Source: Dyella sp. AtDHG13 (GTDB lineage Bacteria > Pseudomonadota > Gammaproteobacteria > Xanthomonadales > Rhodanobacteraceae). From it: DNA of 64,000 bases. The position numbers and the translations under genes are program-made. The stretch spans positions 248,001 through 312,000 of the forward strand of contig NZ_QICJ01000002.1 of the NCBI RefSeq assembly GCF_003201105.1, written 5' to 3'. Under the pieces are notes generated by a model. That model was not told the origin of the DNA. It searched no databases and saw nothing but the letters and a program-made list of their open reading frames with translations. Positions 29,579 to 31,523 of this stretch are shown here, in pieces (position 1 is the first letter of the stretch; every line of letters starts with the position of its first letter).

Positions 29579-31252
29579 CTACGCCAACGCCTGCTGGTGC
29601 ACATCGCGCACGGCCCGGCCCGAGGGGTCGGCCGCCGCCGCGAACGCCGGATCCCACGCCAGCGCCGCAGGCGACGAGCAGGCGATGGATTTGCCGCCCG
29701 GCACCGTTTCCGCACAGGCCTGCCCCGGATAGAAGCGCTCGAAGATACGCCGGTACAGGTACGCCTCCTTGGTGGCCGGCGTGTTGTGCGGAAAACGTGC
29801 CGCCGCTGCGGCGAATTCGCGGTCGCTCACCGCCTGCTCGGCATGCGCCTTGAGGCCATCGATCCAGCCGTAGCCCACGCCATCGCTGAACTGCTCCTTC
29901 TGCCGCCACAGGATCGCGTCGGGCAAGGCGCCCTGGAAGGCCTCGCGCAGCACGGCTTTTTCGATCCGCCCGCCACCGGCCATCTTGTGGCGCGCATCCA
30001 TGCCCATCGCAACGTCGAGGAAGTCCAGGTCCAGGAACGGCACGCGCGCTTCCACGCCCCAGGCCATCATCGACTTGTTGGCGCGCAGGCAGTCGTAGCT
30101 GTGCAACGCATCGAGCTTGCGCACGGTTTCCTCATGGAAGGCTTGCGCCGAAGGCGCCTTGTGGAAGTACAGGTAGCCGCCGAAGATCTCGTCCGAGCCC
30201 TCGCCCGACAGCACCATCTTCACGCCCATGGCCTTGATGCGCCGCGCGAGCAGGTACATCGGCGTCGACGCGCGGATGGTGGTCACGTCATAGGTTTCGA
30301 TATGGCGGATCACTTCGGGCAAGGCGTCCAGGCCTTCCCAGAAGGTGTAGACGAAGCCGTGGTGCACCGTGCCGAGCGCATCCGCCGCCACCTGTGCGGC
30401 GGCCAGGTCGGGCGAACCCTCCAGGCCGATCGCGAACGAATGCAGGCGTGGCCACCAGGCTTCCGCGCGGTCGTCGTCCTCCACGCGATGGCGCGCGAAA
30501 CGCGCGGCGCACGCCGCCACCAGCGAGGAATCCAGCCCGCCGGACAGCAGCACGCCATACGGCACGTCGGTCATCAGTTGCCGGTGCACCGCCTGCTCGA
30601 AAGCGGCACGCAGCTGCGCGGGAGCAACCTCATGCCCTTGCGTCACCGCGTAGTCGCGCCAGGGCTTGTGGTAATAGCGGCGCAATTCGCCGTCGGCGCT
30701 GTCGTAGACATGTCCCGGCGGGAACGACGCGACGTCATGGCATAGGCCGACCAGCGATTTCATCTCGGACGCGACGCACAGGCGTCCCTCGCCATCGTGT
30801 CCCCAGTACAGCGGGCACACGCCGATGGGATCGCGCGCGATCACGTAACGCGATTCGGCGCTGTCCCACAACGCAAACGCAAAAATGCCATTGAGCCGGG
30901 ATACCCACTCGGCGGGTGTCGCGCCTTCGCGATGCAAGGCGTTGATGACCTCGCAATCGGAACCCGTGGTGAAGTCGTAACCACTGGCGGCGCGTAGTTC
31001 GCGGTGGTTGTAGATCTCGCCGTTGACCGCCAGCGCCAGCGCACCGTCGCGCGAACGCAGCGGCTGCGCACCACTGGCCGGATCGACGATGGCAAGGCGC
31101 TCGTGCACGAGGATCACCCCCGCATCCACGAACACGCCGCTCCAATCCGGGCCGCGATGGCGCTGCCGTTGGGACAGTTCCAGCGCCTGCTGGCGCAAGC
31201 CCGCCAGATCATCGCCGGGTTGCAGGTCGAACATGCCGAAGATCGAACACAT
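29579..31252 (-). CDS. asnB: Asparagine synthase B (glutamine-hydrolysing)
   Basis: AsnB makes asparagine from aspartate, ATP and glutamine. The 557-residue protein has the N-terminal glutaminase domain (catalytic Cys2 in MCSIFGMF, RHRGPDWSG, NGEIYNHRELR) and the C-terminal synthetase domain (PPi-loop LLSGGLDSSLVAA, LSGEGSDEIFGGYLYFHKAP, EARVPFLDLDFL). The length and motifs match E. coli AsnB (554). The gene lies behind an apparent transcription attenuator with an Asn-rich leader peptide, which would make expression respond to Asn-tRNA charging. A weak AGGA site precedes the ATG. A second, divergent paralogue is in the polysaccharide locus. Confidence 0.97.
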   Translation of the reverse strand: MCSIFGMFDLQPGDDLAGLRQQALELSQRQRHRGPDWSGVFVDAGVILVHERLAIVDPASGAQPLRSRDGALALAVNGEIYNHRELRAASGYDFTTGSDCEVINALHREGATPAEWVSRLNGIFAFALWDSAESRYVIARDPIGVCPLYWGHDGEGRLCVASEMKSLVGLCHDVASFPPGHVYDSADGELRRYYHKPWRDYAVTQGHEVAPAQLRAAFEQAVHRQLMTDVPYGVLLSGGLDSSLVAACAARFARHRVEDDDRAEAWWPRLHSFAIGLEGSPDLAAAQVAADALGTVHHGFVYTFWEGLDALPEVIRHIETYDVTTIRASTPMYLLARRIKAMGVKMVLSGEGSDEIFGGYLYFHKAPSAQAFHEETVRKLDALHSYDCLRANKSMMAWGVEARVPFLDLDFLDVAMGMDARHKMAGGGRIEKAVLREAFQGALPDAILWRQKEQFSDGVGYGWIDGLKAHAEQAVSDREFAAAAARFPHNTPATKEAYLYRRIFERFYPGQACAETVPGGKSIACSSPAALAWDPAFAAAADPSGRAVRDVHQQALA

Positions 31253-31285
31253 GACTGGGTTTCCTGATGGTTTTTCGCGTGGCGT

Positions 31286-31320
31286 AAAAACAAAAAGGCC
31301 CGCTGGGAGCGGGCCTTTTT
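31286..31320 (-). terminator. Attenuator terminator in the asnB leader
   Basis: On the - strand AAAAAGGCCCGCT (31320-31308), a CCC loop and AGCGGGCCTTTTT (31304-31292) form a perfect 13-bp stem, followed by GTTTTT to 31286. It sits 24 nt after the leader-peptide stop and 33 nt before the asnB start, so full termination would silence asnB. Its 5' arm can instead pair with 31361-31353 inside the leader coding region, which would prevent it from forming. Confidence 0.9.
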
Positions 31321-31343
31321 GCGTGTGTATGTGTTTCCCTTGC

Positions 31344-31472
31344 TTACACGCCGGCCCACCCGTCGATGCGGGTATTGTTATTGGCGTTGTTATTGTTCAG
31401 CGCGCGCAGGCAAGCAGCCGCCGACGCGGAAGCGACGGTCATGGCGACGAGTTGGGCGTGGATGCTGGACAT
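31344..31472 (-). CDS. Asn-rich leader peptide of the asnB attenuator
   Basis: A 42-codon frame begins at the ATG at 31472 and stops with TAA at 31346-31344. Codons 26-33 read Asn-Asn-Asn-Asn-Ala-Asn-Asn-Asn (31397-31374). Immediately after the Asn run, ACCCG (31373-31369) can pair with CGGGT (31362-31358). GGGTGGGCC (31361-31353) can pair over nine bases, two of them G-U, with the 5' arm of the terminator. A ribosome stalled on Asn codons would cover the first segment and favour the antiterminator; one that reaches the stop would cover the second and favour termination. The ribosome site is weak (GAAG), and a second in-frame ATG at codon 11 is an alternative start. Confidence 0.82.
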   Translation of the reverse strand: MSSIHAQLVAMTVASASAAACLRALNNNNANNNTRIDGWAGV

Positions 31473-31523
31473 GGCGTGGACTTCACCACATGTCTGGACG
31501 GCTGACAAGCGCCGCCAAAAGTT

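Follow-up and report, generated by a model that had tools for sequence, protein, structure and literature searches.

The attenuators of the his, trp, thr, leu, ilv and phe operons of Proteobacteria share a leader open reading frame (ORF) rich in codons for the end product, a terminator, and two alternative RNA pairings, segment 2 with segment 3 (2:3) or segment 3 with segment 4 (3:4), of which stalling of the ribosome frees segment 2. The segment layout of these classical attenuators is used throughout for numbering. The mechanism of leader-peptide attenuation is taken as set out in the parts of PMC1183508 that were consulted. Two attenuators, trpL (rnTrpL) of S. meliloti (PMC7298713) and leuL2 ahead of leuS in S. 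lividans (PMC8079986), are leaderless according to the sections consulted, their transcripts beginning where the leader begins. Here, we describe a leader ahead of the asparagine synthetase gene asnB in a 64,000-nucleotide stretch of Dyella sp. AtDHG13 (contig NZ_QICJ01000002.1), termed the window. The sequence makes this a strongly supported and probably undescribed, asparagine-specific version of the classical ribosome-mediated attenuator. We hold it to be very likely that such a transcription attenuator links asnB to the charging of tRNA-Asn, whatever its start site. The full statement, an asparagine-sensing attenuator of asnB with a leaderless leader start, is likely, with somewhat less assurance. 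The initial annotation of this DNA, which had proposed the attenuator, overlooked that the leader is probably leaderless.

Anatomy and folding of the asnB leader

All features of the locus lie on the minus strand, and their anatomy is directly observed. A 271-nt intergenic region separates asnB (31252-29579), encoding a glutamine-hydrolysing asparagine synthetase (NF006949, E 4e-255, 847.6 bits, cut-off 499), from an upstream SpoIIAA-like gene (31925-31524, PF11964). It holds a leader ORF of 42 codons plus TAA, MSSIHAQLVAMTVASASAAACLRALNNNNANNNTRIDGWAGV, running from the ATG at 31472 to the TAA at 31346-31344. Codons 26-33 (31397-31374) read AAC AAT AAC AAC GCC AAT AAC AAT and thus contain seven Asn codons out of eight. 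The run is unique: the sole 8-codon stretches with at least five Asn codons in the six frames of the window overlap here (maximum 7), while 100 dinucleotide shuffles of the window reached a maximum of 3 (74 shuffles), 4 (25) or 5 (1) Asn per 8 codons. The Asn-run leader architecture at these coordinates is beyond chance.

Segment 2, GGGUGGGCC (31361-31353), is located within the leader ORF, in Gly-Trp-Ala codons, and pairs with segment 3, GGCCCGCUC (31315-31307), in an antiterminator of nine pairs, two of them G-U. The other partner of segment 3 is segment 4, with the core GCGGGCC (31303-31297). Together they form an intrinsic terminator (31320-31286) with a 13-bp stem (31320-31308/31304-31292), a 3-nt loop and a U-rich tail to 31286, leaving 33 nt to the asnB ATG at 31252. 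The antiterminator excludes the terminator, and segment 2 lies near the leader stop. A Shine-Dalgarno (SD)-like AGGA of asnB stands at 31265-31262. Leader frame, Asn run, antiterminator and terminator are all exactly where the initial annotation had placed them. A 1:2 hairpin is also found as described, UACCCG (segment 1, 31374-31369) pairing with CGGGUG (31362-31357). Segment 1 had been said to start just after the last Asn codon; as drawn, it takes in the third base of that codon, U31374. Consensus scanners for terminators and promoters reported neither this terminator nor a leader promoter in the window, the terminator probably being missed because of the scanner's tail rule.

In RNA that spans segment 2 to just past segment 3, the two segments pair both in the window (-23.1 kcal/mol) and in 115/115 representatives of related loci (selected as described below). 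Once segment 4 is added the terminator prevails in the window, at -32.7 kcal/mol, and antitermination must therefore be a kinetic outcome. The z-scores of the window pieces were -7.9 for the terminator (31334-31286), -3.2 for segment 2-to-3 (31361-31305), -1.6 for the same piece begun at 31376 and -2.3 for the whole leader.

Conservation and covariation in relatives

The search for asnB homologues covered 197 family genomes (151 with a match), 200 genomes from the order (128 with a match; the two sets overlap), 274 from the class (4 with a match) and genome_contigs, where the best 80 of 553 were taken (Dyella, Rhodanobacter, Frateuria, Fulvimonas, Dokdonella and metagenome-assembled genomes). 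Loci were drawn from the family search (30 and a further 60) and from the order search (loci and a further 40), and 20 more were added later. Among 232 loci examined for the leader, the start of an orthologous asnB anchored 196, the Dyella locus included, and 150 distinct sequences remained after duplicates were merged. From these, 115 representatives were picked by k-mer distance, 48 of which make up alignment A1. L148 (wrong gene end) and L079 and L094 (123 and 60 nt upstream) were left out, and L223 was not anchored.

A leader ORF with at least three Asn per 10 codons precedes asnB in 194 of the 196 anchored loci, in families f1, f2 and f3. Both exceptions are contig ends, and all 194 loci with at least 300 nt upstream have the ORF. 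In the 194 loci a GC-rich terminator-like hairpin follows the ORF (by script or by eye, duplicates seen once); among the representatives the script found it in 112/115, and it is visible in the other three (in L101 via its duplicate L113). The element hence accompanies orthologous asnB in families f1 to f3, with at least one occurrence elsewhere. Loss of the Asn run or of the alternative pairings in relatives, which the initial annotation had named as grounds against its reading, was checked for, and the outcome supports a classical attenuator: three families retain the Asn run, the terminator and segment 2 ahead of orthologous asnB.

The Asn density sets these regions apart. Counted in the densest 10 codons of each of 151 distinct upstream regions (up to 400 nt), Asn numbered 2 (1 region), 3 (7), 4 (16), 5 (26), 6 (42), 7 (55) or 8 (4). 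L075, with its leader at 441-564 nt upstream, probably accounts for the sole region with 2. No shuffled copy exceeded 3 Asn per 10 codons, and 3 was reached in 6/151; thirty distant asnB loci (L222 left out) had at most 2. Among 54 anchored distant loci one, L222 (family f8, genome G268), has an Asn leader, MFAIYNTINTTNNRLLRSAGSF, with 4 Asn per 10 codons, a GCCCGC/GCGGGC terminator and GCGGG near the leader stop; the leader model R1 found it too, at 1.4e-6. L222 would be an independent or older instance of the Asn leader, apparently with a 5' untranslated region (UTR). Two other distant loci, L236 and L214, have long frames with 3 Asn per 10 codons but lack the attenuator layout. At an E-value of 1e-150 or better, the class-wide search found asnB in 4/274 genomes. 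Of these, G500 lies outside the order, and its upstream region (L235) is without an Asn leader.

The leader Asn codons are AAT in 349/764 cases, compared with 73/519 in the asnB genes (representatives whose locus holds asnB), and thus vary in their third base. This coding run speaks against control of the terminator by a riboswitch, T-box or other aptamer. T-boxes do control asparagine genes in some Firmicutes. However, in neither the window nor seven relatives did any Rfam family reach its gathering score. The best match was Thr_leader (RF00506), and it, Trp_leader (RF00513) and Phe_leader (RF01859) gave weak matches over the terminator region of 27.9, 21.3 and 21.7 bits, far below their gathering scores of 55, 41 and 55. 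We give an aptamer scarcely any credence. The same low standing falls to the idea that the leader encodes a small protein with a function of its own, the terminator being secondary. Leader peptides can act in trans, as reported for S. meliloti peTrpL in the sections of PMC7298713 consulted, but apart from the Asn run and the codons of segment 2, peptide sequence and length vary (about 20 to 46 aa) among the relatives.

The distance from leader stop to terminator loop has a median of 40 nt with a standard deviation (sd) of 6 (n=112; range 35-99 with one script outlier; the geometry script chose a farther hairpin for L118). From the terminator loop to the asnB ATG the distance ranges over 42-404 nt (sd 50, n=112). 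The first distance is near constant and the second variable, so the terminator goes with the leader. This bears on another reading, in which the hairpin terminates the upstream SpoIIAA-like gene, asnB has its own promoter after it and the Asn-rich ORF is incidental. In its favour, that gene shares the strand and stops 51 nt short of the leader ATG, and some relatives have long terminator-to-asnB spacers. In the window, however, 33 nt are too short for a promoter plus an SD site, and promoter-like boxes stand at the leader ATG instead. Together with the constant terminator-leader distance and the covariation of segment 2 with segment 3, this makes the arrangement very improbable.

Covariation itself is directly observed. 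A1 was aligned without structure, and the structure tested was taken from the window. The 2:3 helix is paired in 89.8% of 384 cells (shuffled mean 85.6%, 0/500 shuffles as high), with 13 doubly changed cells against 3.6 in shuffles (0/500) and a covariation score of 0.196 against 0.123 (0/500). Slid versions of 2:3 pair in just 31-52%. The 3:4 helix is paired in 98.5% of 480 cells (0/500 shuffles), with 41 doubly changed cells against 4.8 in shuffles. Over all 115 representatives 2:3 is paired in 85.7% of 1034 cells (shuffled 83.3%) and 3:4 in 98.6% of 1150. The three segments also change jointly: the f1 type GGCGGGCC, GGCCCGCC and GCGGGCC is replaced by ATGCGGGT, ACCCGCAT and ATGCGGGT, or close to it, in 9/16 f2 representatives. 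L212 shows one compensatory step, G-C to A-U in 2:3, leaving a G-U in 3:4.

The initial annotation had looked to compensating changes in all three stems of relatives. They are present in 2:3 and 3:4, and the 1:2 hairpin has only moderate support. Its sequence is UACCCG..CGGGUG in Dyella and CGCCAA..UUGGCG at the same place in Rhodanobacter, and sequence and register shift among lineages. The hairpin is moderately supported as likely in the Dyella and Rhodanobacter lineages and is unproven elsewhere; as a general feature of the leader it was dropped.

Several observations weigh against the attenuator or parts of it. In the register first drawn, 1:2 is paired in 56% of 572 cells; in any register the region scores only slightly better than shuffles over the 115 sequences (mean z -0.82, mean rank 0.25). 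In window RNA begun at 31376 it forms beside a 2:3 helix shortened to 5 bp (-23.5 kcal/mol), so that 1:2 alone may not block 2:3 fully. For 2:3 in A1, two of five measures are weak, namely pairs with a double change (4; 15/500) and further pair types (9; 95/500), and related sequences can beat shuffles without any structure. The pair U31358-G31310 is not a standard pair in 14/48 sequences, three other 2:3 pairs are lost in 6-9 sequences, and an A-C mismatch occurs in L099 and L110. Seven leaders (L111, L113, L114, L120, L154, L156 and L213) reach only 3 Asn per 10 codons, and some of the relatives have weak U tracts.

Leader start and proposed mechanism

A promoter-like pair lies ahead of the leader ATG. 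In the window it consists of TTGTCA as the predicted -35 element (31508-31503), a 17-nt spacer and the extended -10 element TGG-TGAAGT (31488-31480), which ends 7 nt ahead of the ATG. CTTG(C/T).. is kept in relatives at the -35 position, and most f1 sequences have CTTGC.. or TTGTCA, 17 nt and TGnTnnAGT. These conserved boxes point to a promoter ahead of the leader ORF. The end of the -10 element is 6 nt (53) or 7 nt (47) from the leader ATG in 100/115 representatives, compared with 5/115 in shuffles. Placed by the usual distance from the -10 element to +1, the RNA start would fall on the first base of the leader ATG or on the base that precedes it. The leader is hence predicted to be leaderless, with its AUG at the RNA 5' end. 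Anti-SD energies of -4.5 kcal/mol or better are found in 18/115 leaders, 28/115 shuffled sequences and 106/115 asnB starts. The arrangement thus departs from the enterobacterial sub-type with a 5' UTR and an SD site, since SD sites are no more frequent than in shuffles and the promoter abuts the ATG.

The same stalling attenuator could also work with a leader translated from a normal 5' UTR with an SD site. The motif GGTGA stands upstream of the ATG in 9/22 Dyella-like sequences, the window included; there GGUGA could act as an SD site (-5.8 kcal/mol, compared with -4.3 for asnB), which makes the window a partial exception. The promoter boxes are poorer in f2, and L222, with -35/-10-like boxes at least 25 nt ahead of its ATG (by eye), does not look leaderless. 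Yet GGTGA belongs to the -10 region and is missing in other genera, and both the anti-SD counts and the -10 spacing speak against an SD-led leader. We regard such a leader as unlikely, though clearly less so than the other rival readings.

We infer that the leader is translated, where its RNA starts, that ribosomes stall and transcription terminates, and that the system responds to asparagine. In the proposed mechanism, transcription would begin at the leader AUG or one base earlier, and a ribosome would initiate on the 5'-terminal AUG and trail RNA polymerase. With plentiful asparagine it would pass the Asn codons to the stop and cover segment 2, so that 3:4 forms and transcription ends ahead of asnB. 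With scarce Asn-tRNA it would stall in the Asn run and leave segment 2 free to capture segment 3 while segment 4 has yet to be transcribed, and the polymerase would continue into asnB. If the reach of the ribosome is taken as 13 nt, segment 2 stays uncovered for 677/729 leader Asn codons placed in the A site.

Metabolic context and comparison with known leaders

Part of the metabolic context is likewise directly observed. The Dyella genome encodes an asparaginyl-tRNA synthetase (AsnRS) above the family cut-off and gave no match to GatB or AsnA. Charging of tRNA-Asn should therefore use free asparagine only. Among the 200 genomes of the order, 23 have no AsnRS match above the curated cut-off. 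Against a simple link, asnB may not be the sole asparagine maker, as two more genes (window 47282-45537 on the minus strand, and G000:C6) pass TIGR01536 but not NF006949 (257 bits each, cut-off 499). No Asn-run leader was seen ahead of either. An assignment of both as exopolysaccharide (EPS) amidotransferases was rejected, as they fall below the TIGR03108 and NF006949 cut-offs and above that of TIGR01536. The gene at 47282-45537 scores highest with the XrtA/EPS amidotransferase model, yet below its cut-off.

Directly 3' of asnB lies a terminator-like hairpin of 8 pairs (29563-29544, minus strand); asnB may thus be transcribed alone. The scan that gave it found 3 such sites in the window compared with 2.2 in shuffles, a weak excess. 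Further downstream, prfB (RF2; 29426-28301, minus strand) has CTT TGA after AGGGGG with the remainder of the protein in the next frame, an arrangement typical of the programmed +1 frameshift in RF2 genes.

Model R1 was searched over the 200 genomes of the order, many of which had supplied the model's own sequences. At E 0.1 some match occurred in 196/200 genomes, mostly terminators among the matches listed. Below 1e-7, 59 of 60 among the matches listed are full-length and directly upstream of asnB (coordinates by eye), and the other, G303:C9, covers a terminator only. The 17 weaker matches inspected held no clear Asn attenuator; one of the weak matches, L276 (family f9, G253:C24), has a frame with NNN ahead of a terminator. 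Three of the 17 are Leu/Ile/Val leaders (L275, L285 and L289). They have Leu/Ile/Val-rich leader frames (LLVLVLIT..) and a terminator, followed by ORFs that resemble ilvC or ilvD by eye. With the Asn leader they share a GC-rich segment near the leader end and the terminator, and a TTGACA box stands shortly before their start; they differ in the amino acids sensed and in the downstream gene, and the Asn model picked them up only weakly. The TTGACA boxes place the RNA start near the leader ATG, so these leaders may be leaderless too. In the Dyella genome no leader above thresholds was found ahead of hisG, ilvB or the aspartokinase gene (500 nt), or ilvC (330 nt). Its hisG (L255) directly follows a short ORF that by eye resembles a TrpR/YerC-type regulator.

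That attenuation of amino acid genes in this gammaproteobacterial order (asnB, perhaps ilv) uses leaderless leader ORFs we consider fairly likely. If so, an extended -10 promoter would start the RNA at the AUG, and a 70S ribosome could load once the 5' end leaves the polymerase. In that case, whatever promotes leaderless initiation would influence attenuation in addition to Asn-tRNA. The apparently leaderless leader could offer a simple system for the coupling of leaderless initiation to transcription.

The initial annotation had suggested that attenuation of an asparagine synthetase gene in this group may be new. By titles and abstract openings of the papers listed in open-access literature searches, with the survey of Vitreschak et al. 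2004 outside this coverage, no asparagine-specific leader-peptide attenuator was found, and the word asparagine is absent from the main texts, supplements aside, of PMC2965389, PMC1183508 and PMC1262725. Taken with the Rfam result, it is probable, not certain, that the Asn attenuator is undescribed and the first asparagine-specific example. If this is right, asparagine joins the amino acids sensed by leader attenuation, control of asnB is suggested for a large bacterial group, and more than 100 natural variants with joint change of segments 2, 3 and 4 become available.

The leader described here has the layout of the his, trp, thr, leu, ilv and phe attenuators, with regulatory codons so positioned that stalling would free segment 2. 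It differs from them in its amino acid and gene (Asn and asnB), in its length, which for most leaders of Dyella and Rhodanobacter is 39-43 codons, in its predicted leaderless start and in a 1:2 hairpin that is weak and lineage-variable. With S. meliloti trpL and S. lividans leuL2, as far as the consulted sections of their papers describe them, it would share a transcript that begins with the leader itself, and it shares a terminator after the leader. It differs from both in amino acid, in class or phylum and in sequence, and its start is predicted here, not mapped. The mechanism would be the textbook one, while the amino acid sensed and the mode of leader translation look new for this bacterial group.
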